Shown in pieces: positions 46,901 to 62,185 of a stretch of 64,000 nucleotides of DNA. The stretch covers positions 1 to 64,000 of the forward strand of contig PHFX01000148.1 in the NCBI GenBank assembly GCA_007618135.1, read 5' to 3'. Origin of the DNA: Candidatus Brocadia sp. WS118. GTDB taxonomy: Bacteria > Planctomycetota > Brocadiia > Brocadiales > Brocadiaceae. Each line of letters begins with the position of its first letter. Position 1 is the stretch's first letter. The position numbers and the translations under genes were made by a program. A model generated the notes under the pieces. That model saw only the letters and a program-made list of their open reading frames with translations, had not been told where the DNA came from and did not search any database.

Positions 46901-48268
46901 ATTGTATACCGGCATAAGTATACTGACGAGCGGTTCGTTTAAGAGCGGCGGTTTCTCCTTGTTGTCTTTGTCCTGTGCTTCCTCTGCTGTTACGGTCGAT
47001 TCTGTAGTCGTATTTTTATCAAGATGAGAAATGCTGCCAGATTGAGAGTCTAATTTTGCAGTTTTCCCTGAATCATCCGGGCTATTCACATTCCCGCTTT
47101 CAATCCAATCGAGTAGCTGACCCACGAATTTCTCAGAGGTATGAAGACTCCTGAGTTTATTGAGCGCATTCGCTGCTATGCGCTGTCCATAACCCGGTTC
47201 ATGCCTGATTCGTTGGATGTGCGAAACCAATTGATCGGGATTATTGCTGTCATACAGCAAAATTTCCTTTCCGTCTTCATACAGCGCTTTGGTCCTGGAG
47301 CGACCCGGTATTTCCCACGAAATTACCGGACGTCCGGCAGCTATCCCCTCAACAATCCGGCCCGCTTGGATTTTGCTATACTGAGGCAGGTTGACAACCG
47401 CACACCCCCCCTGCAGCCCCTGCAACCAAAGGGCAAAGCATTGTCTGCGAATATCGCGAAGGTTGTTGATATAGTTTTCAAACATGGTTGTTGAAAACGG
47501 TCTGCCGCTCTTCAGATACTGTTCGGCAGTGTAATGCAATTGATCGAATCGTTCCGGTAAATCAGTGTCATATTCAGGTGATGCCTCCGGCCGAACAAGC
47601 ACGCCTTTTAAAGAATTCAGGTCCAGCCATTTTTTTCTGTCACCATAAAGTGCGCCATAAAATACTGCGTGATTCTTTGACACTGGCGGAGCTTGTTCGC
47701 AAATGAAACGTGCCGGAATTATACCACCACCCCACCACATTGCCGGCACAGGGCCATGAGTATTAAATTTATCCACATCAACTTCATCGGCAGCTATTAC
47801 ATGAGTTACATACGCGAGACTTTTCTCTACCGCCCTGAGTCTTTTTTGTGTGCCTTCCGGATTGCCAGCCCATTCCCGCGGATCTGTTTCCAGACTTTCA
47901 CAAAGAAAACCAACGCGAATGGGGGCTATCCCGGCAATCCAGTCAAGGAATGCTTCATCTAAATTGCTGTGAGAAATCTCAAACCAGACCTGATCGAACT
48001 GCTGAAACTCACATATTTTACGAGCATAATTCAGCCAAGACCCTGCTGCCTGTGATGGCACTTCGTGCAATGCCGGAATGGTCACATATTGAACGCCAAG
48101 AGTCTTCAGGGCTTCTTCCATCCCGATGCCTAATGGGTATGCCCAATGGCTTGCATTTGCCCATGTTTGAAACTCTAATGGGATAAATAATACCTTCACT
48201 TTGGCATGTTGTTTTACCTTGCCAGCAGCATCGTAATGATTCACTCGTTTCACTCCGGCCAAATCCAT
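43931..48268 (-). CDS. Giant glycosyltransferase-methyltransferase fusion
   Basis: 1445 residues. About 1-405: a glycosyltransferase-like region (VLFIPLEFQTWANASHW, VPAMWWGGGIIPARF, IVEGIAAGRPVISWEIPGRS). About 445-690: GT2 domain (VSILMPVYNSFSYSR, LLILDNQSTDETSTV, GANDDDLWDPRY with an acidic metal site). About 900-1075: first SAM methyltransferase (LRLHLGCGEQYLIDYVNIDF, HVFEHFN). About 1170-1330: second (VLDIGAGTCPYRALF, VIICTEVLEHTPEPIEAL, LKPGGRLFLTAPLG). A short TPR-like tail ends it. It overlaps the next gene by 4 nt (ATGA), so both giant proteins are co-expressed. Two methyltransferases suggest O- or N-methylated glycan residues. Confidence 0.82.
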   Translation of the reverse strand: MDLAGVKRVNHYDAAGKVKQHAKVKVLFIPLEFQTWANASHWAYPLGIGMEEALKTLGVQYVTIPALHEVPSQAAGSWLNYARKICEFQQFDQVWFEISHSNLDEAFLDWIAGIAPIRVGFLCESLETDPREWAGNPEGTQKRLRAVEKSLAYVTHVIAADEVDVDKFNTHGPVPAMWWGGGIIPARFICEQAPPVSKNHAVFYGALYGDRKKWLDLNSLKGVLVRPEASPEYDTDLPERFDQLHYTAEQYLKSGRPFSTTMFENYINNLRDIRRQCFALWLQGLQGGCAVVNLPQYSKIQAGRIVEGIAAGRPVISWEIPGRSRTKALYEDGKEILLYDSNNPDQLVSHIQRIRHEPGYGQRIAANALNKLRSLHTSEKFVGQLLDWIESGNVNSPDDSGKTAKLDSQSGSISHLDKNTTTESTVTAEEAQDKDNKEKPPLLNEPLVSILMPVYNSFSYSRSNGQRLLPRALDSLLSQTFHNFELLILDNQSTDETSTVCKEYAAKDPRIHYILDDRKRFPEDGVNHLAQFMRGKYYMGANDDDLWDPRYIEKTVCVLEQQPDIAMVYSNGYYIDIFGKPNRPILAQKDYYSNKVSPFANFVTYIQKRNILPIAFGVYRTDSFRRMLPFEAFDQLRANVDNLFITKFFLHGYQCYCLDEHLFYYRDKHRYVDPDPNIGMPGLDKPLLIWIYYVRHQFFFLQKVFEEIETSHLSRLQKSYARCASLRGFIVHSCNLFNWVQNDTVKTEQDKQICNKMCELFNTSMPHLAADDERYWKIAENTADEPLINRLLPQLFELLKQRIELIHKSILFYNRIGESQTPDLIRHTGQLLSELAMAIDKERKENLTTGTSQPLSQATGNDKTQTSTLPVHRERQVDNVPKNSPVNHDTHLLYKDSLVYLCSNAIWEGNKPLRLHLGCGEQYLIDYVNIDFPPSQHNVMEVKADLYADIIKLNFPAESVDEIRLHHVFEHFNRVTALALLIKWHHWLKIDGKLHIETPDLIGSAKTLLGEYSWKTKMGVVRHIAGDQSSRWAYHVDHWFPERFEHTLNNLGFRVVQTQSTSWPHEPFLSNVTVIAVKSQNVSLAVQVKAAEEMLWESTVAPTEQPTFEVWKQQLRSLLSDKLETTSTWQPSYCGSQLEQIAHIFQQPGTEQPIQEIHDFNQRERDSWVRMKALTVPAGSRVLDIGAGTCPYRALFAHCDYKTHDFKRYLGEKLGGTAEYGKIDYESDICAIPVMDNSFDVIICTEVLEHTPEPIEALREISRILKPGGRLFLTAPLGSGLHQLPYHYYGGYTPEWYKHFCSKFSLYVSEISPNGGFFKLLAQECARMVWTLPKHQHLHGNNVEFIKYLFGEWIPRYLFALEKNHFIDQFTVGYHVEAIKVRDIDAVQKLIESDTQNVSLYIEAARSLMNHGKFINARMYTEDALELNHDNSMLLEMYQQLTSRS

Positions 48269-48277
48269 CCTGGGTAT

Positions 48278-49489
48278 TCAGGAATATTTTGATAAAAAAG
48301 ACTCTATTTCCTTGATAACATAATTGCATTCTTCTTTACCCAGATCCTGATGGACTCCAATATGAATGCCATTTTTGCCGATATACTCAGCGTTTGGAAA
48401 TTCACCGTACTGGTATCCTAAAAAACCGAAACCCGGGCATTGGGTAGGCATAGAAGAAAAGAGATTCCGTGTATCAATCCCCTGTTGTTCAAGACAATTA
48501 ACCAGCTGATTTCTGTTAAATTTTACCCCTTCCTGAATAATAATGGGAAAGGCGTGAGGACCTATCCTTTCATGTGGTTCCTCTTCAATCGTGGCAAGAT
48601 AGGGTTCAAATTGCCTGAACTGGTTCATCAGATACAGGAGATTCTCTCTTCTTTTTTCCAGTATCGTATGATATTCATCCATATTTCCAAGACCTACAGC
48701 AGCTTCAAGCTCATTCATTTTTGATGAATACCCGATTCTTTCAAAAATAAATCGTATATCCTCACCATTCGCATTTGAAAACCTTTTCGTACAATATCCA
48801 GAGTTGACATTGAGCACACATTGTTCACACTTACAGGCACGGCCATGAGATCGTATGGATCTGAGCACTTCGGCAAATTCAGCGTTATTAGTTACAATAA
48901 TACCGCCTTCAATGGTGGTAATGATATGAGCAAGATACAGACTAAATGCCCCTAAATCACCTAGCGTACCGGCTTCTTTTCCTTTATAAAGCGCTCCATG
49001 TGCCTCTGCTGCATCCTCTATGACATAAAGATCATATTTTTTTGCGATAGCGGTAATTGCATCCATATCCGCGGGTTTCCCCATAAGATGAACGGGCATA
49101 ATCGCCACCGTTTTTTCTGTGATGGCCTCTTCAATTTTCTTTGGATCGATATTTAATGTGTTTCTGTCAATGTCCACAAATGATGGTGTAAATCCCGCAT
49201 GCAAAACCGCATTCCCCGTGGCGACAAAAGATAAAGCGGGGATAATAACTTCATCGCCTCTTTTGGCGCCATAGTCATGAAGAACAGATAACGCCAGGAT
49301 ATCGGCATCTGTTCCGCTACTCACGGCAATGGCCTCCTTTGCTCCAATGAGTGCAGCAAATCTTTTTTCAAGTTCACGTACATACTTGCCATTTGAAACC
49401 CTTTTGGTAGCTAATACCTCATAAATAATGTTTTTTGACCTTTCCGTTATGGAAATAGTTCCAAAGGGTATTTTCATTTTTTCAGTCAT
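48278..49489 (-). CDS. DegT-fold PLP enzyme of the E1/ColD dehydratase type (His in place of PLP Lys)
   Basis: 403 residues, DegT/DnrJ/EryC1/StrS fold. In aminotransferases of this fold the PLP Lys lies in FSFYPTKNL-TGEGG; here AFSLYLAHIITTIEGG has His188 at that place. The same change defines sugar 3-dehydratases: ColD and the E1 enzyme RfbH/DdhC (YPAHHITMGEGG). As in E1, Cys cluster residues follow (C219, C221, C224, C233, then TKRF). E1's first cluster Cys would align with Ala161 (EDAAEA), so the iron-sulfur site, if present, is altered. Likely reaction: C3 deoxygenation of a nucleotide 4-keto-6-deoxysugar. It starts directly after the stop of the nucleotidyltransferase gene (TAA-ATG). Confidence 0.8.
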   Translation of the reverse strand: MTEKMKIPFGTISITERSKNIIYEVLATKRVSNGKYVRELEKRFAALIGAKEAIAVSSGTDADILALSVLHDYGAKRGDEVIIPALSFVATGNAVLHAGFTPSFVDIDRNTLNIDPKKIEEAITEKTVAIMPVHLMGKPADMDAITAIAKKYDLYVIEDAAEAHGALYKGKEAGTLGDLGAFSLYLAHIITTIEGGIIVTNNAEFAEVLRSIRSHGRACKCEQCVLNVNSGYCTKRFSNANGEDIRFIFERIGYSSKMNELEAAVGLGNMDEYHTILEKRRENLLYLMNQFRQFEPYLATIEEEPHERIGPHAFPIIIQEGVKFNRNQLVNCLEQQGIDTRNLFSSMPTQCPGFGFLGYQYGEFPNAEYIGKNGIHIGVHQDLGKEECNYVIKEIESFLSKYS

Positions 49490-50224
49490 TTAGCGCCTCA
49501 TGGTTTGATAGGTAAAATTACGAAAGACCTTCTGAGCCAATTCGTATCTTTCTGGTACTCCAATATCAATAAGTTGCTGGTTTTCAACAAACCCATACAT
49601 ATTCCTCTGCCGAATAAGGGTTGGAAACAAGTCATATTCAAGTGAATATTTTTTTCCTGCCGGTATGAGAGAAACGACCTCTTTATCGAAAATATATATC
49701 CCTGCGTTAACGAAACCATACGCGTCGTCAAATTTTTCATGAAAACTGACAATTCGATGCGTCTCAGTTATTTTCACGATGCCACAATCGTTTGATTTGT
49801 CGGTCGGGATCAACGCAATACTTGCAAACGATTCTTTTGAGATATGAAATTCAAGAAAGTTATAGATGTTTACCTTACAAAATGAATCACCGTTCATTAC
49901 CAGAAAAACATTACTCTGAATCAGTGATTCTGCGTTTTTTATAGCCCCAGCTGTGCCCAGTGGTTCTTTTTCTTCAGAAAAGAGCAAATCTATGGGATAC
50001 TCCTTGTTTTCGTAGTATTTCCTTACGAAGTCTCCTTTATAACCCGTACACAGGATAAACCGTTTACTACCATATCTGCTCAAATACTCTACCAGTATGT
50101 CAAGAAACGGATGCTGGTTTATTTTTGCCATGGGTTTCGGACGATCATGTACGATTTTTCTCAGCCGGGTACCTAAGCCACCACAAAGAATAACCACATC
50201 AATATTTTCAGAGAGTGGATTCAT
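49490..50224 (-). CDS. Sugar-1-phosphate nucleotidyltransferase, HddC-like
   Basis: 244 residues. The nucleotide-binding signature VVILCGGLGTRLRKIVHDRPKPMAKINQHPFLD and the D-x-D-type VMNGDSFC segment mark an NTP-transferase. The adjacent GHMP kinase (HddA-like) suggests it is a D-glycero-D-manno-heptose-1-phosphate guanylyltransferase or close relative, but mannose-1-phosphate guanylyltransferase cannot be ruled out. The start overlaps the kinase stop by 4 nt and the stop abuts the ATG of the dehydratase gene, so all three are tightly co-translated. Confidence 0.8.
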   Translation of the reverse strand: MNPLSENIDVVILCGGLGTRLRKIVHDRPKPMAKINQHPFLDILVEYLSRYGSKRFILCTGYKGDFVRKYYENKEYPIDLLFSEEKEPLGTAGAIKNAESLIQSNVFLVMNGDSFCKVNIYNFLEFHISKESFASIALIPTDKSNDCGIVKITETHRIVSFHEKFDDAYGFVNAGIYIFDKEVVSLIPAGKKYSLEYDLFPTLIRQRNMYGFVENQQLIDIGVPERYELAQKVFRNFTYQTMRR

Positions 50225-51327
50225 GAAGTAATATTTAGCAGGTTTTGTGCAGGGAAAACTGATTCCTTGCGCTCCAATCTTTCTCTCGTTTTTACTACAT
50301 AAGGCATTGGAATGAATGTATTACTTTCTATCCGTTCCTTTTCCGGTTGATAAACAATAATCTGACTCCCATTGTTTTCAAAATGAAAAGGAACAAACAA
50401 GTGTCCTTTTAGTTTTTCTTTTATTTTGGACTGGTCTTCTGGTTTTGCAAAAAGGAGGACAAAACCACCACCACCCGCGCCTACCACCTTGCCTCCAATT
50501 GCACCTGCCTCTTGAGCAGATTCATAGATCATGTCGATTTGAGGGGTTGTTATCCTGTCAGAAAGCCCTTTCTTCAGATTCCACGATTCATGCAATAGTT
50601 TTCCAAACTCCGTAATGTCTCTCCTGGAGTTACTCAGTATTTCTAGAGCCTCATCAACCATTTGACGCATAATCCACAACTCGTGTCGCCGGTTGCCGGT
50701 ATTTTCAATCTGATTCTTTGCGATGTCAGAGGCATATCGGGAAAATCCGGTAAATAACAACAGCAGATGGTTTTGTAACTGATGCAATCTATCAATACTT
50801 ATAATGACAGGATTTACCTGAAATGAATTGTCTGCTCTAAAGATAATTTTATTAAACCCGCCAAAAGAGGCTAAAACCTGATCCTGGCAACCCACATTTT
50901 CGTTCAGGATGTTTTGTTCAATTTGAATGGCGTCCTGTGCTAATTGTATTTTTGTCGGCATGATCCCTTTAATGGCATAGAGGCAGTGCAATAAACCAAC
51001 GGTAAATGAAGAGCTTGATCCAAGTCCTGTCCGAGCTGGTAAATCGCCATCATGATGGATTTCTACTCCCTCATGAATATTCATAAATTGTAACGTTGCC
51101 CGGATAGAAGGATGCCGAATTTCAGCAATATCTTTTACTGCCTCTATTTTGGAATAAACAACACGGTGTTTATGTTCGAAAAAGGGTGGCAGATTCCTGC
51201 AGGTAATATAACAGTATTTGTCGATCGTTGTTGCTAATACGGCACCATCGCTTTCCTTATACCAAACGGGATAGTCTGTACCACCACCAAAAAAAGAGAT
51301 TCTAAACGGCGTTCTGCTAATTATCAT
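50221..51327 (-). CDS. GHMP-family sugar kinase, HddA-like
   Basis: 368 residues from ATG 51327, chosen because AGGAAAG lies 6 nt upstream (an ATG at 51387 lacks this). It opens with RTPFRISFFGGGTDYPVWY, the galactokinase-signature region typical of HddA (D-glycero-D-manno-heptose-7-phosphate kinase) and related GDP-sugar kinases. The ATP loop LPARTGLGSSSSF and the C-terminal VVGAGGGGFVLLF complete the GHMP motifs. It phosphorylates a sugar at C1 to feed the downstream nucleotidyltransferase. Exact substrate inferred from pairing with the HddC-like gene. Confidence 0.8.
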   Translation of the reverse strand: MIISRTPFRISFFGGGTDYPVWYKESDGAVLATTIDKYCYITCRNLPPFFEHKHRVVYSKIEAVKDIAEIRHPSIRATLQFMNIHEGVEIHHDGDLPARTGLGSSSSFTVGLLHCLYAIKGIMPTKIQLAQDAIQIEQNILNENVGCQDQVLASFGGFNKIIFRADNSFQVNPVIISIDRLHQLQNHLLLLFTGFSRYASDIAKNQIENTGNRRHELWIMRQMVDEALEILSNSRRDITEFGKLLHESWNLKKGLSDRITTPQIDMIYESAQEAGAIGGKVVGAGGGGFVLLFAKPEDQSKIKEKLKGHLFVPFHFENNGSQIIVYQPEKERIESNTFIPMPYVVKTRERLERKESVFPAQNLLNITS

Positions 51328-51395
51328 GAAATTCTTTCCTGTATTTAATGACTTCCCTGTCGGTCGTTCTATGAAATATTCATACAACGCCTGTT

Positions 51396-52868
51396 TTAAT
51401 TTTCGAGCAGCTTTCTTTTGAGCCTTATCTTTGTCATTTCATGAATGTGGGCATTAATTTTACTCCCGAACTTTGCCCCGATCATATTCAAGTAATCCGT
51501 GTTATCAAAGTATGTATGGAAGGCGTTATCTCTGAATTTTAGCACTTCTCTTGCACTTACATATCGTGTTGGCAACGGTAACATGTCGAAAGAATGTTGT
51601 GAAAATCCGCCCCATGCTTCAGGAAGTTTCCAATCATTTTGCAAGGCAATCTCATAAAGTTTCGAGCCTGGATATGCCATGGCACAATAAAAGTTAGCCC
51701 ATTCCGTATTTAACTCCATTGCCATGTCAAGGGTTTCTTGCATGGTATCATGCGTATCGTCAGGTAGTCCAAACAGGTAATTTGCTCCTACCCTAATGTC
51801 TGCTAATTGAATCCGACGAACAACGTCGGTTATGTCCTTTCGTTTTAACTGCTTATTAGCGCCATCCCTTACTGCCGCGCTTGCAGATTCGATACCCAAA
51901 CCAAGCCAATTGATACCGGCCTTTTTCATTTTATGAAGATTTTCATACTTGATGGTATCAACCCTGGCATATGCCCAGAGGTTTAAACCGTATCCTTTTT
52001 GAATAATCAAATCAACAATTGCCATATAGTGCTTTTCGTTTAGAATAAATAATTCATCAACAATTTTGATGTTTTTGATTCCGTATTTGTCTGTTAATAA
52101 TCCAATCTCCTCAACCACGAACTCCGGACTCCGGTATCGTATCCCGGATTTTCCAAAAGGGGCGTTGATACAACAGAAAATACAGGAATACGGACAACCA
52201 AGGCTCGTATATATTGCACCATAAGGCATTCTCTTATCTATATCATCAAAGCAGTGCCAGTTATGGGCCCTGTATCTCGTCATCGGTAATAAGTCCCATG
52301 CTGCTACGGGCAAACCTTCGTCCATATCCTGAATTAACGGAGCCGGTGGATTCCTTTTTATTTTTCCACGGTCGCAATACCAGAGCCCAGGTACAAGGGA
52401 ATAATCGTTTTTGCTCTGCCTCAGTGTCTCAATTAAACTCTTCAGGGTAAGAGGTCCTTCTCCTACGATAACAAAATCTACATCTTCATCCTCAATGGTT
52501 CTGCTCGGTAAGGCAGACGGATGAAGCCCTCCGATAGCAACCTTTACAGAGATTTTTGTTTTGATCGCGGTACAAATCTTCCCTGCAATTGTCATATTTT
52601 GCGTTGATGCCGAAGGATGTGAACCATACACAATAACCGCTGCAAGCAAAGGGTCTATTTCAAGGACTTTTAAGGCAGTTTCATCAGGCAATAAATTTTC
52701 AGCATTTGCATCAATAATGTGCACAGCAAAACCTTTGTTTCTGAGATAAGCGGCAATGACTGTTATCCAAAAGGGCGGCTCAATTGCCGTGAGTTCTTTT
52801 CCCAGTTCCTGATAAACCTGCTTTCTGTCTCCGGGATTTATTAATACCAAGTCGGTTTTTCCCCGCAT
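51396..52868 (-). CDS. B12-binding-domain radical SAM protein
   Basis: 490 residues. An N-terminal cobalamin-binding-like Rossmann domain (LVLINPGD, WITVIAAYLRNKGF, GGLHPSALPS, VDFVIVGEGP) precedes a radical SAM core with the cluster motif TSLGCPYSCIFC (Cys225, 229, 232). Such enzymes (class B) often methylate unreactive carbons or phosphorus. In this sugar locus a C-methylation or other radical step is plausible but unproven. Intact SAM-core residues downstream (GLGIESA) are seen. It lies 20 bp after the HAD gene and about 70 bp before the kinase gene. Confidence 0.82.
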   Translation of the reverse strand: MRGKTDLVLINPGDRKQVYQELGKELTAIEPPFWITVIAAYLRNKGFAVHIIDANAENLLPDETALKVLEIDPLLAAVIVYGSHPSASTQNMTIAGKICTAIKTKISVKVAIGGLHPSALPSRTIEDEDVDFVIVGEGPLTLKSLIETLRQSKNDYSLVPGLWYCDRGKIKRNPPAPLIQDMDEGLPVAAWDLLPMTRYRAHNWHCFDDIDKRMPYGAIYTSLGCPYSCIFCCINAPFGKSGIRYRSPEFVVEEIGLLTDKYGIKNIKIVDELFILNEKHYMAIVDLIIQKGYGLNLWAYARVDTIKYENLHKMKKAGINWLGLGIESASAAVRDGANKQLKRKDITDVVRRIQLADIRVGANYLFGLPDDTHDTMQETLDMAMELNTEWANFYCAMAYPGSKLYEIALQNDWKLPEAWGGFSQHSFDMLPLPTRYVSAREVLKFRDNAFHTYFDNTDYLNMIGAKFGSKINAHIHEMTKIRLKRKLLEN

Positions 52869-52888: not shown

Positions 52889-53533
52889 TTACAGCACTTG
52901 TTTGAGATCGGTAAACGTATCAATTATCATGTCGGCTTTTTGTAAATACCTTCTTTTTAGCGTGGAACAAATTGCGATGCAGTACATACCAGCACTTTTT
53001 GCTGATGCTATTCCTACAGGGGCGTTTTCAATCACCACACATTCCGAAGGGATCACAGATAACGACTTTGCAGCACGCAAATACGGCTCAGGGTGTGGTT
53101 TGCAATGATTCACATTATCACCGGTAATTATCACATCCATCTGTCTCAAAAATTTGTCACCTGCTATTTTTAAAAGTCTGGTATAATTTGCACCCGATAC
53201 CAAACCTGTAAAATAACCTCTTCTCTTAAATTCCGGAATAAGTGTCTTGACACCGTCGTAAAAACGAAACCTATGATTTTCGAGATAATATGTTTCCTTC
53301 CGATTAACGATCTCAGTGATTGTTTGTGAATCAAAGCCATTTCTTGCAGAAAAATACTTAGCAACGCCCTCAGTATTCATGCCTTCAAGCAGAAAATACT
53401 CGTTTTTATCGATGCTGATACGGTGTTTTGAAAAGGCGTGTTTCCATGCCACATAGTTGTCATCCATGGTTTCACCGATTACTCCATCAAAATCAAAAAA
53501 TATTGCTTTGAACTGCTTCATGGCAATTTTCAT
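52889..53533 (-). CDS. HAD-superfamily phosphatase/phosphoglucomutase-like hydrolase
   Basis: 214 residues. HAD motif I is AIFFDFDGVIGET (nucleophile Asp), motif II is near GLVSGAN, motif III Lys in NHCKPHPEPYL and motif IV VIENAPVGIASAKSAG. The closest style is the beta-phosphoglucomutase/phosphatase-like subgroup (IA) rather than GmhB, so it may dephosphorylate a sugar phosphate in the same pathway. It lies 19 bp downstream of the UxaA-type gene. Confidence 0.8.
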   Translation of the reverse strand: MKIAMKQFKAIFFDFDGVIGETMDDNYVAWKHAFSKHRISIDKNEYFLLEGMNTEGVAKYFSARNGFDSQTITEIVNRKETYYLENHRFRFYDGVKTLIPEFKRRGYFTGLVSGANYTRLLKIAGDKFLRQMDVIITGDNVNHCKPHPEPYLRAAKSLSVIPSECVVIENAPVGIASAKSAGMYCIAICSTLKRRYLQKADMIIDTFTDLKQVL

Positions 53534-53552: not shown

Positions 53553-55148
53553 CTACAAAGACAATTTTCCCGCAGTCCAGATTTGAAATGAACGTTTTTC
53601 CCATATTTCAGACCGGGATTTTTTGCCGGAAGCGACTTCTATGACTAGGGTAAGAAGTTGTTCACTTAATTGGTCGAGTGAAATATTATTGTCCAGGAGG
53701 ACACCGGCATTAAAATCAATATCTTCGTGCATTCTCTGAAAGATCTCGGTTCTTGATGACAGCTTTATTACGGGAGTTATTGCATTACCTTCGGTTGTCC
53801 CCATGCCGGTAGAAAAAAGAATTATATTTGCTCCGGATGCGACAATGCCTGTCATCGATTCAAGATCATTCCCCGGTCCATTCATTATTGACAGTCCTTG
53901 TTTTTTAACACGCTCGGCATAATCTACAAAATCAACAATTTCTGTGCTGCCGCCTTTTAAAATGGCCCCCAGACTTTTTAAGGTCAAATTTACCAGTCCT
54001 CCTTCTTTGTTGCCGGGGACAAAGTTTCCATCCATAGCCACATTGAGTCTTTCAGCCAAGGTCTTATAGTAATTCATTCCTTTGATAAATTTTCTGGCAA
54101 CGTGTTCAGACACCATTCTCTTCATCAAGCTGCTCTCAGCACCTATCATCTCGGGAGTTTCCGAAAGAATTGCAGAACCGCCACCATAAATTATTTTATC
54201 AACCGTTAACCCGATAAGTGGATTGGCTGTGATACCGGAAAATGAATCAGATGCTCCGCATTCAGTGCCAGCTACAAGATATTTTAGTGATACCTCTTCA
54301 CGTTCTGTCGTATTGACTTCTTTCAGTCTGGCAAGAATGATATTTTTTCCAGTTTCCAAAGTATTACGTGTGCCTCCCGCCTTCTGGATTGATAGATAAT
54401 CAATTGGCTTTTTACATGCAGACAATTCATGAAAATATTCAGATACAACTTTGTAATTTGTTTTTTCGCAGCCCAGATCAACAACCAGTGCACCGCCAAC
54501 ATTTGGGTGGTCTATAGTATTTTTCAATGTTCTCATCACCCTGTCTATGATCTCACCGTCGTTACAACCACATCCCTCGGTGTGAACTGCAGCTACAATT
54601 CCATCGACGTTCTTGTACTTCTTCCGTAGGGTTTCACTGTTATCCATGGCATACGCAATCTTAAATGCACTGTCGCCTGCGCACAGTGAGGTTGGCACTA
54701 CCAGGTAATAATTTCGCGTTCCTACCCGCCCGTCTCTTCTTTTGTATCCCCAGAAAGTATTCCCACATTGTTTATAATGTCTCCTTCTTTGATTTTGGAG
54801 ATAATAAGTAGCCGCACCTGCTATAGAGATGAGTGCTTCAGAATCGTTGCTCTTATAAATTTCGGTATTGCAACTATCGATGACCTGACCTCTTTTTATT
54901 CCTCTGGACAATCCGAATGCATATCCGTACTGGAAAACAAATTCCCCTTTTTTTACATCCATGAGAGAAAATCGGTGGCCTTTGGTAATTGCTTGTCCTA
55001 CTTTTACCATTGTTCCATTAATTTTTATTACCGTATTCTTTTGAATATCATTCTTTGCAATAGCAACATTGTCATGCTCCGACATACGGAGGGCAATGTT
55101 ATTGAAGGAAATTTCTTGTATTTTCTGACTATCTTTTCTTCGGTTCAT
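53553..55148 (-). CDS. UxaA/GarD-family sugar-acid dehydratase
   Basis: 531 residues. A small SAF domain (about 15-95: VAIAKNDIQKNTVIKI, GHRFSLMDVKKGE) precedes a GarD/UxaA core with GYKRRDGRVGTRNYY and HTEGCGCNDGEIIDRVMRTL, as in altronate and galactarate dehydratases; these use an iron site and remove water from a sugar acid. The last ~100 residues carry VNLTLKSLGAILKGGSTE and FSTGMGTTEGNAITPVIKL. A catabolic altronate dehydratase in a polysaccharide operon is unexpected; it may dehydrate an acidic sugar intermediate. It overlaps the upstream fusion gene by 4 nt. Confidence 0.8.
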   Translation of the reverse strand: MNRRKDSQKIQEISFNNIALRMSEHDNVAIAKNDIQKNTVIKINGTMVKVGQAITKGHRFSLMDVKKGEFVFQYGYAFGLSRGIKRGQVIDSCNTEIYKSNDSEALISIAGAATYYLQNQRRRHYKQCGNTFWGYKRRDGRVGTRNYYLVVPTSLCAGDSAFKIAYAMDNSETLRKKYKNVDGIVAAVHTEGCGCNDGEIIDRVMRTLKNTIDHPNVGGALVVDLGCEKTNYKVVSEYFHELSACKKPIDYLSIQKAGGTRNTLETGKNIILARLKEVNTTEREEVSLKYLVAGTECGASDSFSGITANPLIGLTVDKIIYGGGSAILSETPEMIGAESSLMKRMVSEHVARKFIKGMNYYKTLAERLNVAMDGNFVPGNKEGGLVNLTLKSLGAILKGGSTEIVDFVDYAERVKKQGLSIMNGPGNDLESMTGIVASGANIILFSTGMGTTEGNAITPVIKLSSRTEIFQRMHEDIDFNAGVLLDNNISLDQLSEQLLTLVIEVASGKKSRSEIWEKRSFQIWTAGKLSL

Positions 55149-56875
55149 TTTATATCTTTAGATGTTGATTTCAGCAGGATGGTCTTTTCAGAAATATTTA
55201 AGCCTTTTGCATTTTTTAAAATATCCGCTTTTTGGGTATTGCCTTCGGATAAAAGCGCAGTATTGCTGGCATCGAATAGAACGCCCTTGCAGGATGTATA
55301 GAGTTCTCCTCCACGAACCTTAAAATTTCTCTTAAACTCATCACTATCTGGAAACAGTTCAAAGGTAACGCTAAATCTGCTATTATGATGATGATATGTT
55401 TTATATGGCGAGGATTCTTCATAATGGAAATAATTGAATTCATTTAAGTTTTCGGTTTCCATTTCTGTTACTCCCTCATATCCGATTGTTTCTCGTCCAT
55501 ATCGGTCCTCCAGTCTGATGAGATCAACCTTGTTTGGTGGAGTTTCTATTTCCAACAAAAATACTCCATCGTCAGAAAGAGTTTTTGTAGAATGAAATAC
55601 CCCCTTTTCAATAATGATGGCGTCTCCTCCTCTGAGATACCGTCTTTGCAAGAAGGTATTGCTCATAGCGTTCCCGGATAAAAGAATTAACGACGTCTTC
55701 TTCAGCGAATGGCAATGCATAGAAGTTGAATATCCTTTTTTTATGTAAAGCAACCACACCGCAACAACCTTATTTTCAAATACCAAAAACTCATATCCCC
55801 ATGGCTTTACCACTACTCTGCCTTTGTAGGTATTTGGCTGCACGTTCGCATATACGTTCCCGTTGTTATTGCTTATCGTCTTAAGGGCCACGGTATCCTT
55901 TTCGCATACATTTGTTTGGCATATTTGAGAAGTTCGTATTTCCTTTTTATCAATTTCATCCAAAAATGCCTTATACGTAATTTCTACACCGTCTCTTAAT
56001 AGTGTGCTGTGCTTCCAGCCGAGTTCGTTCATTCTCGATACGTCAAGTAATTTTTTTATAACACCATCCGGTTTTCTTTTATCGAAGGTAATCTTTCCTT
56101 TATATCCTACGATTTCCTGCACTATTTCGGCTAATGTTAAAATCGTACAGCAACTACCGGTACCGATATTGAATACATCACTATCTGAATATGCACTTGT
56201 TAAAAACATGCAAGCATCAGCGACATCGTCAACAAAAAGAAAATCACGCGCTGGAAGACCAGTCCCCCAGAGGGTAACTTCTTCGGAATGTTGAACCTTT
56301 GCCGTATGAAACTTACTGATGAGCGAAGGTAATACCTGCGCATTCAGGACATCGTAATGCTGTTTTGGGCCGTAAATATTAGGTGGAATAAGAACGATGA
56401 AATCCGTTCCATATTGCCTGTTGTATGATTCGCACATTTTTATTCCGGCAATTTTAGCAAGCGCAAATGGTTCACAGGTTGTTTCCAATACGCCAGTTAA
56501 TAGATAATCCTCTTTTGCCGGTTGGGGACAATGTACCGGGTAAACGTCTCCACATGCCAAAAAGATCATCTTCTTCACTTCACTTAAGAAGGCGCAGTGA
56601 ATGACGTTTGTCTGAATCATGATATTCTCATAAATAAATTCCGCACGGTACGTGGTATTCGCAAATATTCCACCTACTTTTGCTGCGGCAAAAAATATAT
56701 AGTCGGGCCTTTCTCTGTCAAAAAAGGATTTTACAGCAGCCTGATTGGTTAAATCTAATTCCGACCGATTTCTGGTCAATATATTGGTATAATTATCCTT
56801 TATCAATCGACGGACAATGGCTGAACCAATCAAACCGTTATGCCCTGCTACAAATATTTTATCGTTCTTATTCAT
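55145..56875 (-). CDS. GDP-L-fucose-synthase-like protein with lost catalytic residues, fused to a cupin
   Basis: 576 residues. About 1-310 is an SDR of the GDP-fucose-synthase type (IFVAGHNGLIGSAIVRRL, FFAAAKVGGI, EPFALAKIAGIKMCES). The catalytic Tyr of YxxxK is Phe137, while Lys141 stays; the Ser and Cys of the usual GSSCIYP are changed (LACGDVYP). The ordinary epimerase-reductase chemistry is therefore unlikely. About 335-470 is a cupin (KPWGYEFLVF, SMHCHSLKKTSLILLSGNA, GVFHSTK). The C-terminus (about 480-576) has no assigned domain. It could be a binding or non-redox sugar enzyme. It lies 20 bp downstream of the DJ-1/PfpI gene. Confidence 0.8.
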   Translation of the reverse strand: MNKNDKIFVAGHNGLIGSAIVRRLIKDNYTNILTRNRSELDLTNQAAVKSFFDRERPDYIFFAAAKVGGIFANTTYRAEFIYENIMIQTNVIHCAFLSEVKKMIFLACGDVYPVHCPQPAKEDYLLTGVLETTCEPFALAKIAGIKMCESYNRQYGTDFIVLIPPNIYGPKQHYDVLNAQVLPSLISKFHTAKVQHSEEVTLWGTGLPARDFLFVDDVADACMFLTSAYSDSDVFNIGTGSCCTILTLAEIVQEIVGYKGKITFDKRKPDGVIKKLLDVSRMNELGWKHSTLLRDGVEITYKAFLDEIDKKEIRTSQICQTNVCEKDTVALKTISNNNGNVYANVQPNTYKGRVVVKPWGYEFLVFENKVVAVWLLYIKKGYSTSMHCHSLKKTSLILLSGNAMSNTFLQRRYLRGGDAIIIEKGVFHSTKTLSDDGVFLLEIETPPNKVDLIRLEDRYGRETIGYEGVTEMETENLNEFNYFHYEESSPYKTYHHHNSRFSVTFELFPDSDEFKRNFKVRGGELYTSCKGVLFDASNTALLSEGNTQKADILKNAKGLNISEKTILLKSTSKDIK

Positions 56876-56895: not shown

Positions 56896-57405
56896 TTAGA
56901 GATTAAATTGCCTGAGTGTCTCTCTCATCCAATCACCGTTATATTTATAGTGCGGCGATGTTACAATATTCCCGTCCACAACAACAGGGGCATCAATATA
57001 CACAGCGCCGGCATTTTCGATATCGTCTTTTATCCCGATATATCCTGAAATACGTTTCCCTTTTACAATCTTGGCTGAAATCAAAATCCATGGACCGTGA
57101 CAGACTGCTGAAACAATTTTATTTTTGCTATACATTGCCCTGATGAATTCCAGCACTTCTCTTATTTGTCTGACTCTGTCAGGGGCTTCATGTCCTCCCG
57201 GTAAAACCACCAGATCATAATCAGGCTCTTTCAATTCTGTTATATCCACAGTTGGTTTAGCTGGCACGCCGTATTTACCCTTTACCATTTCCTTGCCTTT
57301 TACTGCAACGTCTACATGAAAACCAGCTTCTTGCAGCCGATAAAACGGGTAAATAAACTCCTCATCTTGAAAGTTCGGACCCGTAATGATTACCGATCTT
57401 CTCAT
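56896..57405 (-). CDS. DJ-1/PfpI-family protein
   Basis: 169 residues from ATG 57405, chosen for AAGGAG 9 nt upstream; an in-frame ATG at 57432 lacks one. The fold's nucleophile elbow is VSAVCHGPWIL (Cys, then His), and DYDLVVLPGGHEAPDRVR and GDWMRETLRQF are typical of PfpI/YhbO-like proteins. These act as glyoxalases, deglycases or proteases in different studies, so function is uncertain. It is within the sugar operon, 13 bp after the radical SAM gene. Confidence 0.82.
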   Translation of the reverse strand: MRRSVIITGPNFQDEEFIYPFYRLQEAGFHVDVAVKGKEMVKGKYGVPAKPTVDITELKEPDYDLVVLPGGHEAPDRVRQIREVLEFIRAMYSKNKIVSAVCHGPWILISAKIVKGKRISGYIGIKDDIENAGAVYIDAPVVVDGNIVTSPHYKYNGDWMRETLRQFNL

Positions 57406-57445
57406 GAACAAATCTCCTTCACCTTTTCTCATCAGGCCTGGCTGA

Positions 57446-59242
57446 TTATAAATATCTGCACAAATTTAAGACCTCGAACCTCTTTTGCCAATACGTTGAA
57501 TTGTCCAGGTATGTTTTTGCCTGTACTTTTCGTTCTTGTGATTCTTTGCTCTTCCCTAATCTTTGTTCCAAAATCCCCAGAAATAACGTCGAGAGTGGGT
57601 TTTCCGGAACACGATCACAGATGTCTCTTAACATTTTTTGTAACATGTGTAACTTAATTACCCGATCCTCCGTGAGGATCCTTTCGTAATTTACCTTGTA
57701 ATCAACGAGAAACCATACGTCTTTCAGTTGTTCATCCGAGGGAATCATATGGGGATCTGCCTCTAAAAGGTTTTTAAATTCCTTTGCCTCTATTTTTTCA
57801 TTTTTTTCCCGCAACCTTTGACCACCCGTAGATCCAATAAAAAATTTGTCTTGAAACCCCTTTTGTCTGACGGTATCACTATCACTCAGTGACTTATGTA
57901 TTTCCGTTGATGGAAACAAGGTAAGAATCTGTATGGGATACCAGTCAAGCTGTAATTCCAATGCAAGATTGACGGTGTCCAAAACCTGTCCAATCGTTTC
58001 ATCAGTGAAGCCAACCATCAGAAAGCCCTTTGTAAATATCCCCGGATATTGCTTCAAAATTGCTGCAGCTCTTCGATAGTCACGTAAGTCACTGGGTTTG
58101 CGAATCGAATCTAAAATTTTCTGATTTCCTGATTCGATTCCTAAATGCAACCCTATACATCCAGATTTATAGGCAGCGTCAACAATTTCCGGAGTTATTG
58201 ATGCTGCAATAACTCCATTCGACGCATCCCAGGAAATATTCATATTTCTTTTCACAATTGCATGAAATAATTCAAGTGCACGTCTTCTGTTATAAAGGAG
58301 GTCATCATCCAACCACATAAAATGGGTTATATTATATTTTTCTTTTAGACATTCCATTTCATCGACAATTACTTGTACCTTACGTGATCTGATCCCTTTA
58401 CCGCAGAAAGCGTTTACACTACAATAAGTGCAGCTTCCCCGACATCCCCTGTTTGATAAAATTGCAGATGCGCATACCTTGTCGTCTAATAGCCAATGGT
58501 ATGCACCTATTTTCCCCAGGGTATGATATTCTCCTATGGGCAATGAACCATAGTCAGGAACAGCATCAATATCATATTCCCGCAATTGCTTGTCGATAGA
58601 AAAATATCCGCTTCTCAGTTTTGTTGCAATTTGCCTTAATGCATCAGCGGTCGTTTTCTTGTTAATAAAGTCAATTATTGTAACGAAACTGGTATCTCCT
58701 TCGTACAGAGAGATAAAATCAATCGATCGGCACTCTGTTAACACGGTTTTTGCAGCCGTTGTCGAATGCACCCCTCCAGCAATCACAGGCAGGTTTTTAT
58801 GAACCTTTTTAATAAACTCTGCAATCTTATACATTTGCGGGGCAGTCATTGAAAACATACACGTAATTCCAATAAGATCAGGTTTGAAGACCTCTATCCG
58901 CTCCTTCAATTTACTTTGCCACACGTCGTAATGAAAAGATCTCCTTGCTGAATGGAAAGAAGCCAAAACCTCGTAGTTTAGGTCAATAATCTCTGAAACG
59001 TAGCCATTTTCATGTAACCTTTTATTTATGATACCAAGTCCGTACGGTGGGAATGCCGGATACCTTTTTTGCCGTGCCACCTCAACATCAAAATATTCTT
59101 CCGGAACCTGGGGCGGAGACACCAATAAGATGCGATTACAGAGATGAACCATAGTGGTAATTTTATCTGAAATTACTTCTCTTGTAGCATCCTGTATTTC
59201 CAGGAGGTCATGTCGTTTTATAGGAAGAGCAACACTGCACAT
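57446..59242 (-). CDS. B12-binding-domain radical SAM protein
   Basis: 598 residues. An N-terminal cobalamin-like domain (ILLVSPPQVP, LHENGYVSEIIDLN, VIAGGVHSTTAAKTV, LYEGDTSF) precedes the radical SAM motif SNRGCRGSCTYC (Cys267, 271, 274) and a core with FMWLDDDLLYN and HLGIESGNQKI. The final ~150 residues lack a known domain. It resembles methyltransferase-type class B enzymes. It is the first gene of the tightly packed block that continues to 39306. The next upstream gene (E1beta-like) is 114 bp away with no clear terminator between. Confidence 0.82.
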   Translation of the reverse strand: MCSVALPIKRHDLLEIQDATREVISDKITTMVHLCNRILLVSPPQVPEEYFDVEVARQKRYPAFPPYGLGIINKRLHENGYVSEIIDLNYEVLASFHSARRSFHYDVWQSKLKERIEVFKPDLIGITCMFSMTAPQMYKIAEFIKKVHKNLPVIAGGVHSTTAAKTVLTECRSIDFISLYEGDTSFVTIIDFINKKTTADALRQIATKLRSGYFSIDKQLREYDIDAVPDYGSLPIGEYHTLGKIGAYHWLLDDKVCASAILSNRGCRGSCTYCSVNAFCGKGIRSRKVQVIVDEMECLKEKYNITHFMWLDDDLLYNRRRALELFHAIVKRNMNISWDASNGVIAASITPEIVDAAYKSGCIGLHLGIESGNQKILDSIRKPSDLRDYRRAAAILKQYPGIFTKGFLMVGFTDETIGQVLDTVNLALELQLDWYPIQILTLFPSTEIHKSLSDSDTVRQKGFQDKFFIGSTGGQRLREKNEKIEAKEFKNLLEADPHMIPSDEQLKDVWFLVDYKVNYERILTEDRVIKLHMLQKMLRDICDRVPENPLSTLFLGILEQRLGKSKESQERKVQAKTYLDNSTYWQKRFEVLNLCRYL

Positions 59243-59356: not shown

Positions 59357-60256
59357 TTATTCGTTCAGCAACATCTTCACTGTCTCATAAATCCTTGCAG
59401 CATCTGGCGCTTTATTCTGCAAGGGAGGGCACAAACACTTCGATCTGTCATACAATCCTAGTGCTTTAACCTTGCACCCGGTAGCCTGATTTAATTCATA
59501 TGCAAGAGACTGTGAGGCGCCCGCTATTTCATAACCGGGATCTATCACAACACCTTTTTTACTCTGAAGAAGAGGTTCTGTCAGACGCTCAGTAACAACA
59601 AATGGTTTGAGCCACAAAAGGTGAACAAGATTGCATTTGATTCCTTCTGCTTCGAGCGTTTCTGCTGCCTTATGTAACTCAAATCGTACCGATGATATCG
59701 CATAAAGTGTTATATCCGCATTGTCCACGATTCGGTCGTTTAATTCCTGAGTGTTTCCGTAGCTTGCACGATGTTCGCTCACGATCATGGGATCATCGTT
59801 TGCCAAGAAATTCTCCCAAATTTCTTCATACTCTCCTGGAGTCATGGGTGAACATATCCGGAAACCAGGAAAATGCATAAAAATACTGTGTAAAATGCCG
59901 GAATGAACAGGACCTAATCCATCGGCGCCAATTGCCCTTACAAAGACAGGGGCACTTTTGTCATGCAATTCCTTTGTCTTTGCAGCATAAAAAATGAGCG
60001 GACTTCCGTTTAGAATAAGAAAGTCCTGAAACCTGATAACAAATATAGGTCTTCTTCCAACCAATGCAGCGCCTACAGCGATACCAGCGCCTGCTACGTC
60101 TGTCATGGGAAGTTCGACTATTCCCGGACAGTCTGGAACGGTATTATTCACCCAGCCAACGGCAGTGATCGATTCTCCTAAAAGCAGGCCATGATTTTTA
60201 GTTAAATGATTTCTTGTTACCTCTTTGATAGTTTCTGCAACGGTTTTTAGTCCCAT
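59357..60256 (-). CDS. ThDP-dependent enzyme, E1beta/transketolase-C-terminal-like subunit
   Basis: 299 residues, equivalent to the pyruvate dehydrogenase E1 beta or transketolase C-terminal half. Seen: the cofactor-activating Glu region VELPMTDVAGAGIAVGAALVGRRPIFVIRFQDF, the pyrimidine-binding GPVHSGILHSIFMHFPG, and a C-terminal SQSLAYEL region. It overlaps the alpha gene by 10 nt, so the two form a heteromeric enzyme. No E2 or E3 genes are near, so it is unlikely to be an oxidative dehydrogenase complex; a transketolase-type C2 transfer onto a sugar is plausible. Confidence 0.85.
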   Translation of the reverse strand: MGLKTVAETIKEVTRNHLTKNHGLLLGESITAVGWVNNTVPDCPGIVELPMTDVAGAGIAVGAALVGRRPIFVIRFQDFLILNGSPLIFYAAKTKELHDKSAPVFVRAIGADGLGPVHSGILHSIFMHFPGFRICSPMTPGEYEEIWENFLANDDPMIVSEHRASYGNTQELNDRIVDNADITLYAISSVRFELHKAAETLEAEGIKCNLVHLLWLKPFVVTERLTEPLLQSKKGVVIDPGYEIAGASQSLAYELNQATGCKVKALGLYDRSKCLCPPLQNKAPDAARIYETVKMLLNE

Positions 60257-61122
60257 AATTCCTTCATTTGGTCTTGAGTTTCTTTTTCTATCTGACAGAT
60301 TTCTTTTGCAAGCCCTCTTTTATTACATTCATCTTTTACCAGGCTAAATCTGTCCCATTCAGGTTTCCCGTCAGTGCCTGTCCCCATGTGCCAGTTTTCC
60401 CTGCATGTATAAATATTCATAAAAGCCGGAAGATTTTTTTTAAACTCCTGTACCTTTCTATATATTGTCCAGGGATCATCGGTAATGTCGACTGCCGGCA
60501 TTCCAAGCGCTTGTGCCACATTGGTCATACTCCATGATCGCCTCACATCAACCTTTGTCAGGATTGATAAATTATTATCCTCACAGACAAATAATACGGG
60601 CAGTTTCTGTGACACAGCAAATCCCATCGCAGCAAATACATAATCTTCCTCCGTTGCTCCATCACCAAAAAAAGATACCGCAGGTTTTCCACTTCCAAGT
60701 GCAGCCCCAACGGCAAGCGGCACATTTTCTCCGATTAAACCGTGATGTCCATACATAGTAATATTATTTTCATGACATTGAATACAGTTTGAACCTGCCC
60801 TTCCACCACTCGTTCCACCCGGTAATCCAAATAATTCATCTTTCAGCCTTCCTGTATCTCCTCCAAAGGATAAATAAGTTGCATGACATCTGTGCTGCGC
60901 AAATATCATAAATTCGGGAATTACCAATGACATTGCTGCTGCAATTGATTCCTGACCTGATGAAAGATATATTGGGTATGTAATAGCTCCGTTTTTAACG
61001 GCTTCAATTAATCCCTTTTCAAAATATCTGACACGACACATACGACGGAATATCTCTAGCGAGATATCCTGGTTAATAGTATTTGAAAGGCCTGGTATTA
61101 TACCAAACGTTGACGACCTCAT
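60247..61122 (-). CDS. ThDP-dependent enzyme, E1alpha/transketolase-N-terminal-like subunit
   Basis: About 291 residues from ATG 61122, preceded by GGAGAGG; a GTG at 61134 is an alternative. The ThDP motif is visible as FFGDGATEEDYVFAAMGF...CEDNN (GDG...NN). Upstream YLSSGQESIAAAM and HRCHATYLSFGGD resemble E1 alpha subunits. It is the partner of the beta gene at 59357. In a sugar-nucleotide locus this pair resembles two-component ThDP enzymes reported to add a two-carbon branch to deoxysugars (recalled: AviB1/AviB2 of avilamycin). Substrate unproven. Confidence 0.85.
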   Translation of the reverse strand: MRSSTFGIIPGLSNTINQDISLEIFRRMCRVRYFEKGLIEAVKNGAITYPIYLSSGQESIAAAMSLVIPEFMIFAQHRCHATYLSFGGDTGRLKDELFGLPGGTSGGRAGSNCIQCHENNITMYGHHGLIGENVPLAVGAALGSGKPAVSFFGDGATEEDYVFAAMGFAVSQKLPVLFVCEDNNLSILTKVDVRRSWSMTNVAQALGMPAVDITDDPWTIYRKVQEFKKNLPAFMNIYTCRENWHMGTGTDGKPEWDRFSLVKDECNKRGLAKEICQIEKETQDQMKELWD

Positions 61123-61246: not shown

Positions 61247-62185
61247 CTATACATTGCTATATCTGCTATTGGTAATTATCTTATATCCTTTAATAAGTTC
61301 TTTTATTCCGGCTTCAAGCGAATACTGAGGTTGGAAGCCGGTTTTTTCTATCTTTTTATTGGAAACGATGTAGTCTCTTTTATCAGGGTCTTCACCTACT
61401 GGTGACTCTAAACAAACGAAGTCAGGAATACATTCTTTTATTTTTGCACACAGTTCAAGCTTTGAAAGATTTGCACTTGACAGCCCTACATTATAGGGTT
61501 CATTTTTCATGGTCTCAAAGTTGTTTATCGCGTGAATAAACGCCCCTGCCACATCACGAATATGGATATAATTTCGTTTAAAATGACCTTCAAATATCAC
61601 AACAAAGCGATCTTTAACTGCCCTGTAGGTAAAATCATTCACCAGTAAATCTATTCGCATCCTTGGAGACATGCCAAATACGGTAGCCAACCGAAAACTG
61701 ATAGAGTTTCCCCGGTCAAGCACAATCTTTTCCGCCTCTGCCTTCACCTTTCCATACAAAGAAATTGGTTTCAAGGGTGTTTCCTCAGTGCAATACACCC
61801 CTTTTTGCCCTATGCCATAACCACTATTCGTTGTGGGTATAATTATTCTTTGTTCCCTGGATGCAAGTTTAACTATGGAAAGTGCCCCATCTCTTATCGT
61901 TGTTACCGTCCCTATCTTGTCCCTGCTGCAAAGCGGAGCACCTACTAATGCAGCCAACGGTATAATATAATCGTGTTTTTGCAAAAGAGGTTGTAGGATA
62001 CTTTCATCTCTTGCATCACCTCTGAAAACATCAAAATGTTCATATGCACAGCATTCGAGCAATGAATTTTGTCCAAACATAAAGTTATCCAATACGGTTA
62101 CTTTATGCCCCAATTTTAATAATTCTGGGACCAGAATTGAACCTATGTACCCTGCACCTCCCGTAACCAATATTTTATGCCCCAT
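61247..62185 (-). CDS. NAD-dependent nucleotide-sugar epimerase/dehydratase (extended SDR)
   Basis: 312 residues. The cofactor motif is ILVTGGAGYIGSILVP, and the active site has SGYGIG with the catalytic YxxxK in ISLYGKVKAEAEKIV. FRLATVFGMSPRMRIDLLVNDF and RNYIHIRDVAGAFIHAI are typical of UDP- or GDP-sugar epimerases. Unlike the Fcl-like fusion at 55145-56875 it keeps Ser, Tyr and Lys. It may make the 4-keto or epimerised sugar nucleotide used further down. It lies 112 bp before the E1alpha gene. Confidence 0.85.
   Translation of the reverse strand: MGHKILVTGGAGYIGSILVPELLKLGHKVTVLDNFMFGQNSLLECCAYEHFDVFRGDARDESILQPLLQKHDYIIPLAALVGAPLCSRDKIGTVTTIRDGALSIVKLASREQRIIIPTTNSGYGIGQKGVYCTEETPLKPISLYGKVKAEAEKIVLDRGNSISFRLATVFGMSPRMRIDLLVNDFTYRAVKDRFVVIFEGHFKRNYIHIRDVAGAFIHAINNFETMKNEPYNVGLSSANLSKLELCAKIKECIPDFVCLESPVGEDPDKRDYIVSNKKIEKTGFQPQYSLEAGIKELIKGYKIITNSRYSNV

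Follow-up and report, generated by a model that had tools for sequence, protein, structure and literature searches.

In the E1 component (alpha2beta2) of the pyruvate dehydrogenase (PDH) and branched-chain complexes, Glu-beta59, which triggers activation of thiamine diphosphate (ThDP), has been called invariant, and His-beta128, which is assigned to lipoate acetylation, has been described as conserved in all known E1s (PMC2663715). Two-subunit E1-like ThDP pairs without an E2 are also found in sugar clusters, i.e., AviB1/AviB2 of avilamycin and Pau11/Pau12 of paulomycin; C2 transfer to a 4-keto sugar has been proposed for these pairs, whereas the reaction of YerE in yersiniose A biosynthesis is known (PMC4425429, PMC4753412). 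YerE acts on a 3-deoxy-4-keto NDP-sugar, which is formed with the help of a PMP-type dehydrase, and adds C2 to its C4 ketone. In the GDP-heptose pathway of C. jejuni, Cj1427 oxidises GDP-heptose at C4, which together with a C3-dehydratase (PMC10440746) leads to GDP-3-deoxy-4-keto-heptose in vitro (PMC10680097). Rif15a/b and split transketolases (6yaj) are further two-subunit ThDP enzymes without an E2.

We analyzed a 64,000-nt stretch of DNA from Candidatus Brocadia sp. WS118 (the window). A first-pass annotation of this sequence had described an E1alpha/E1beta gene pair with GDG...NN in E1alpha and a 10-nt overlap, and the motif and ORF coordinates confirmed all three points (Table 1). Exactly 10 nt, ATGGGACTAA, are common to the E1alpha and E1beta ORFs. 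The ATG of E1alpha is preceded by GGAGAGG, and the mechanically called ORF opens at GTG 61134. E1alpha matched Pfam E1_dh with 68 bits, and E1beta matched Transket_pyr with 49 bits and Transketolase_C with 34 bits, all above the gathering scores. In the NCBIfam PDH equivalog models, the pair reached only 107 of 394 and 75 of 321 bits, far below the cut-offs, and the C-terminus of E1alpha was shorter than that of PDH E1alpha. AlphaFold models of both subunits showed the E1 fold (pLDDT 90 and 91); the best structural matches were PDH E1beta 1w85_B for E1beta (TM 0.86) and PDH E1alpha 1ni4_A for E1alpha (TM 0.84), and DXS and split transketolase ranked behind PDH E1. The pair is therefore like PDH and branched-chain E1 in fold, domain order and the GDG...NN motif; however, it differs from them in carrying Asp for Glu-beta59, in the loss of His-beta128 in most members and in the lack of an E2. 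The pair is a real, new subfamily of a known kind of enzyme in a known kind of locus.

Table 1. Genes of the E1alpha/E1beta pair and its surroundings, with positions in the window.
Feature	Position	Strand	Remarks
SDR of Cj1427 type, candidate GDP-heptose 4-dehydrogenase	61247..62185	minus	382 bits, full length, to 6vo6_A
E1alpha-like ThDP subunit	60247..61122	minus	291 aa from ATG 61122; ThDP/Mg motif GDGATEE...EDNN
E1beta-like ThDP subunit	59357..60256	minus	299 aa; Asp53 for activating Glu; overlap with E1alpha
B12-binding radical SAM protein 1 (rSAM1)	57446..59242	minus	CxxxCxxC present
DJ-1/PfpI family protein	56896..57432	minus	Cys111 invariant; neighbour of Asp-type pair
GDP-fucose-synthase-like reductase fused to cupin (type II phosphomannose isomerase-like)	55145..56875	minus	
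Galactarate/altronate dehydratase (UxaA-like), accessory	53553..55148	minus	Broken in sibling G004
HAD phosphatase (beta-PGM subfamily)	52889..53533	minus	
B12-binding radical SAM protein 2 (rSAM2)	51396..52868	minus	Homologues in 52/80 viral loci
GHMP kinase, HddA (heptose-7-phosphate kinase) nearest	50221..51387	minus	140 bits, below equivalog cut-off of 600
Nucleotidyltransferase, HddC (heptose-1-P guanylyltransferase) nearest	49490..50224	minus	163 bits, below cut-off of 300
DegT-fold protein, His for PLP lysine (SLYLAHIITT), candidate NDP-sugar 3-dehydrase (RfbH/ColD type)	48278..49489	minus	
Glycosyltransferase and methyltransferase multidomain protein	43931..48268	minus	
Multi-GT2 glycosyltransferase with TPR	39306..43934	minus	

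The same annotation had assumed that E1beta contains the Glu region; this was wrong, as Asp53 (PMTDVAG) aligned with Glu-beta59 of Geobacillus stearothermophilus E1beta (3duf/1w85; Glu60 of the chain when the initial Met is counted), with the preceding Pro in register. Asp occupied this position in all 84 family members, which comprise 5 bacterial loci of 4 lineages and 79 uncultivated viral contigs, and Glu in 111/111 of the other E1beta sequences or pairs. In our first survey of 115 concatenated pairs, 111 carried Glu and four carried Asp, i.e., those of the sibling genome G004, a Deltaproteobacteria MAG (L097), Geomonas limicola (L098) and a Ca. Sungbacteria MAG (L099). The His-beta128 position retained His in only four of the 84 members (the window, the sibling, L097 and L098) and was Ala or Ser in the remaining 80, while the E1alpha motif GD...(E/D)DN was kept across the family. 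Glyoxylate carboligases, which have Val, are cited as the family departing from the activating Glu (PMC3534367), and the residue in the present family is Asp rather than such a Val. We place the pair in a branch of its own among the E1-type ThDP enzymes, one that probably works without an E2 and has Asp where the activating Glu would be. To our knowledge, which is not exhaustive here, no other ThDP family has Asp at this position.

The absence of an E2 from the neighbourhood had been noted in the first-pass annotation, which held that clustering with true PDH E1, and an E2/E3 pair without an E1 of its own elsewhere in the genome, would speak against its reading. We searched the genome (5.04 Mb in 299 contigs, 96% complete; about 4% may be missing) and found a single E2 gene, which lies on contig C14 and follows directly on an E1alpha/E1beta pair of its own. 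No lipoyl or E2 gene was present in the operon of the Asp-type pair. In this assembly the pair therefore has no free E2, and service as PDH E1 to an orphan E2 was ruled out. The other weak E1_dh match of the genome, on C221, proved to be a true split transketolase pair (L096:9136-11202), which lies in another sugar locus, one with radical SAM genes.

The lineage of the pair was assessed with a tree of the 115 pairs. The Asp pairs shared a single long branch with full support. It lay outside the Glu pairs as a whole, apart from PDH, from the Glu-type pairs that occur without an E2 in glycan loci and from Pau11/Pau12, the AviB homologues; because the branch is long, its exact attachment point is uncertain. 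Pau11/Pau12 were represented by the pair of Streptomyces sp. ISL-100 (L176), which is of paulomycin type by gene order only, with the E1 pair located by EF-G and an EmrB-type transporter (compared with PMC4425429). This pair was placed inside the Glu sugar-locus group and retained Glu, and a constraint grouping it with the Asp clade gave a p-AU of 0.016. The suggested AviB-type placement was thus not borne out, and membership in the AviB/Pau lineage was ruled out; separation from PDH held, and E1 was nearer than transketolase. The Asp-type pair resembles AviB1/AviB2 and Pau11/Pau12 as a two-subunit pair in a sugar cluster without E2, but the Pau-type pair, as assigned by gene order, keeps Glu, belongs to a separate clade and lacks the DJ-1, cupin and heptose genes that accompany the Asp-type pair.

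An IMG/VR scan with the five bacterial E1beta sequences yielded 80 kept loci (83 confirmed) at 35–51% identity, which collapsed to 61, 55 and 28 sequences at 95, 90 and 75% identity, respectively. The viral members clustered in a single clade, whose sister was the Sungbacteria pair, and the window, L097 and L098 formed the other group. E1alpha adjoined E1beta in nearly all viral loci, the two genes mostly overlapping by a short stretch of about 27 nt, and no E2 match was found in the viral cassettes carrying the pair. T4 core genes, i.e., those for UvsW, UvsY, tail tube, major head protein, late sigma factor and gp46/gp47, lay at most 12 genes away in 22/80 loci, and further contigs carried a head maturation protease or a RecE-like exonuclease. 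Across these loci (L183-L262), the Asp-type E1 pair forms part of a conserved sugar cassette, together with genes for DJ-1, cupin, kinase and radical SAM proteins, and the cassette often lies between UvsW and gp55/gp47 of T4-like phages. Two families without a Pfam match, represented by L211:11790-12695 (about 301 aa) and L260:5711-6124 (about 137 aa), recur in 30 and 38 viral loci. Named phages gave only four distant matches to the pair and plasmids only distant ones, PHROGs held no family for it, and BFVD contained no convincing E1beta fold. We found no relevant report of such a pair in phages or flagellin islands in the open-access literature searched.

The gene company of the pair was conserved. 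Among the 80 viral loci, DJ-1/PfpI was present in 77, cupin in 75, SDRs in 72, DegT in 70 and rSAM2 in 52; a homologue of the window SDR was present in 42. The kinase was an HddA-like GHMP protein in 30 loci and an HldE-like PfkB protein in 36, and both never occurred together. After dereplication to 28 loci, 11 had GHMP, 12 had PfkB and none had both (hypergeometric p = 2e-4, which overstates independence because the kinase type follows the E1 tree). The kinase swap, with at least two switches on that tree, is therefore less independent evidence than the p-value suggests. The nearest NCBIfam models of the kinases and transferases were HddA, HddC and RfaE domains I/II, all below cut-off; for either kinase type, the closest curated family was one of heptose kinases.

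In the window operon, the genes downstream of rSAM1 are separated by gaps of mostly 0–20 nt or overlap by 4 nt. The best solved relatives of its DegT-fold protein were CDP-4-keto-6-deoxyglucose-3-dehydrases (3bcx, 3bb8), and the protein also matched ColD. As His replaces the catalytic PLP lysine, a role as aminotransferase was ruled out and the protein was taken as a candidate 3-dehydrase; 68/73 of the viral DegT genes likewise encode His. Two bacterial loci count against the carboligase reading given below: in the part of the Sungbacteria locus that was read, the DegT is of the Lys type and a His-type copy is lacking, and no DegT was found within 10 kb in L098. The DegT copy of the window has a CxCx2Cx8C motif, which is not found in the viral copies. 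The free cupin of the Sungbacteria locus matches PF01050. The structure 6vo6_A, which the window SDR matched, is Cj1427 of C. jejuni.

Candidate homologues of HddA, HddC, Cj1427 and the C3-dehydratase, i.e., the enzymes of activation, C4-oxidation and C3-deoxygenation in the C. jejuni GDP-heptose pathway, occur in one operon, the first two below the equivalog cut-offs, the SDR with 382 bits and the dehydrase with His. With the Cj1427-like SDR, the His-type 3-dehydrase and these activation homologues, the operon encodes candidates for everything needed to make a 4-keto-3-deoxy-heptose, and the sugar is probably a heptose rather than a deoxyhexose. The putative kinase, transferase and dehydrase assignments rest on scores below equivalog cut-offs. 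The published C. jejuni scheme differs in having no ThDP pair, DJ-1 or radical SAM protein.

The locus had been called a sugar locus in the first-pass annotation, which was correct; it is more precisely a flagellar glycosylation island. In the sibling genome, the same operon comes after flgN, flgK, flgL, fliW, csrA and a TPR gene. At the same flagellar place, three congeners (G009, G010 and G011) hold a different, Glu-type E1 pair with GHMP, His-type DegT and nucleotidyltransferase genes, indicating that the flagellar locus swaps sugar modules. GDP-mannose-dehydratase-like and other SDR genes accompany the Glu-type pair at this position in the congeners (L079, L081 and L083). In a Nitrospirales genome (L113), too, genes for a CsrA homologue and the flagellum are closely followed by a Glu-type pair with nucleotidyltransferase and GHMP genes, and E2-less Glu-type pairs of the congeners' clade occur in many phyla with GHMP/HddA-like, nucleotidyltransferase and His-type DegT genes. 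The Sungbacteria MAG has both types, its Glu pair directly before a GHMP kinase gene. As these Glu-type pairs sit with the same genes, the sugar context is common to two E1 lineages. The two Sungbacteria pairs lie within about 7 kb (L099:10001-17151), suggesting that each serves a C-C bond step or a sugar of its own. In another genome (L090; G062:C10), a Glu-type pair lies with HddA/HddC-like genes and a close rSAM2 homologue (537 bits), and an acetolactate-synthase-like ThDP protein is encoded a few genes away.

We postulated that the pair is an E2-independent ThDP carboligase whose acceptor is an NDP-3-deoxy-4-keto-heptose, the 4-keto group of which would receive a two-carbon unit, and we give this reading a probability of roughly 0.47. 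In role, though not in lineage, it would be like YerE and AviB. We infer the substrate of each enzyme, the order of steps, the branching reaction, its donor and the flagellin target as follows. Heptose 7-phosphate would be converted to NDP-heptose by the HddA-like kinase, the HAD phosphatase and the HddC-like transferase; the Cj1427-like SDR would oxidise C4, and the His-type DegT protein would take off the C3 hydroxyl. The ThDP pair would then attack the C4 ketone with a ThDP-bound two-carbon unit, either an acetyl group with pyruvate as the donor or a glycolyl group donated by a ketose phosphate, yielding a C4-branched higher-carbon sugar. The fucose-synthase-like reductase and B12 radical-SAM chemistry (perhaps methylation) would provide further steps, and the glycosyltransferases of the island would place the sugar on flagellin. 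A reaction of the YerE/AviB kind is the simplest proposal because a C4 ketone would be available, a 3-dehydrase is a companion and an acyl acceptor is lacking. YerE itself is a single-chain flavoprotein of the acetolactate-synthase type, whereas the Asp-type pair is an E1 heteromer. The earlier suggestion that the pair attaches a two-carbon group to a keto-sugar therefore fits its context, i.e., no free E2, the Cj1427-like SDR, the His-type 3-dehydrase and the company in about 80 viral loci; the likeness to AviB and the Glu region no longer count as evidence for it.

The main alternative is that the pair builds the sugar skeleton as a transketolase would, passing a C2 unit to an aldose or aldose phosphate; the resulting higher ketose phosphate would be isomerised by the phosphomannose isomerase-like cupin and activated by the HddA/HldE-type kinase, the HAD phosphatase and the transferase, in a logic like that of the lincosamide octose. 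Such a role would agree with the nearly constant contiguity of the genes for the E1 pair, cupin, HAD and DJ-1 proteins, with the likeness of the cupin to type II phosphomannose isomerase, and with a substitution in E1alpha, where the Tyr that precedes the invariant Arg in the human protein (AYRAH) is replaced by His in all 84 family members. Rif15 is, in addition, a precedent for the use of ketose donors by a two-subunit ThDP enzyme (PMC6002545). However, split transketolase is more distant from the pair than E1 in both sequence and fold, a transketolase and GmhA are already encoded elsewhere in the genome, and the constant 3-dehydrase would be left unexplained. We therefore consider this alternative unlikely.

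Less probable still is that the pair acts as a non-oxidative 2-oxo-acid decarboxylase or acyl donor, with the DJ-1/PfpI protein as the acceptor of the aldehyde or acyl group or as the downstream enzyme. DJ-1/PfpI neighbours the pair in 77/80 viral and 5/5 bacterial loci, with Cys111 invariant in 82/82; this partner fits neither the YerE scheme nor the transketolase-like route. The E1 fold of the pair and the UxaA-like gene, whose product would form a 2-keto-3-deoxy acid in the window and L097, also agree with this reading. On the other hand, we know of no DJ-1 protein that serves as an acyl carrier, and the UxaA-like gene is absent from the viral cassettes and broken in the sibling, so that UxaA was ruled out as a core step. 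The sibling copy (L077:15971-17020) is probably decayed, as it is split over three frames and is about 100 residues shorter than the window copy.

The substitution of Asp for Glu in all members could also mean that the pair is catalytically dead or regulatory, having lost its activating residue; this appears very improbable, because bacterial and viral members alike keep the ThDP/Mg motif GD...(E/D)DN and dozens of polar residues without change, and glyoxylate carboligases are active although they have Val instead of this Glu (PMC3534367). The exchange is also a reservation about the carboligase reading, as it may alter the chemistry of the pair. Finally, despite its clear E1 homology, we can hardly credit the pair as an ordinary E1 of a 2-oxo-acid dehydrogenase complex working in trans with the C14 E2, as that E2 has its own E1, the pair forms a separate clade far below the PDH equivalog cut-offs, the His of the lipoate step is lost in 80/84 members, and the viral cassettes gave no E2 match.

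The carboligase reading extends, tentatively and against the odds as we judge them, to a ThDP family common to flagellar glycosylation islands and T4-like phages, which would activate its cofactor through Asp and make a C4-branched sugar from NDP-heptose; the phages would then encode every step towards a branched higher-carbon sugar that has not yet been described. The viral distribution of the subfamily is unexpected, and its conserved catalytic substitution is unusual. Genes of such pairs annotated as "pyruvate dehydrogenase E1", and neighbouring genes annotated as "DegT aminotransferase", are probably misnamed. Hardly any ThDP enzymes lack the activating Glu, and a natural variant with a conserved Asp, present in bacteria and in many viral contigs, offers a new test of ThDP activation. 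In addition, the cassette points to an undescribed heptose-derived sugar of phages and flagellated bacteria, the chemistry of which is directly testable from the gene company.
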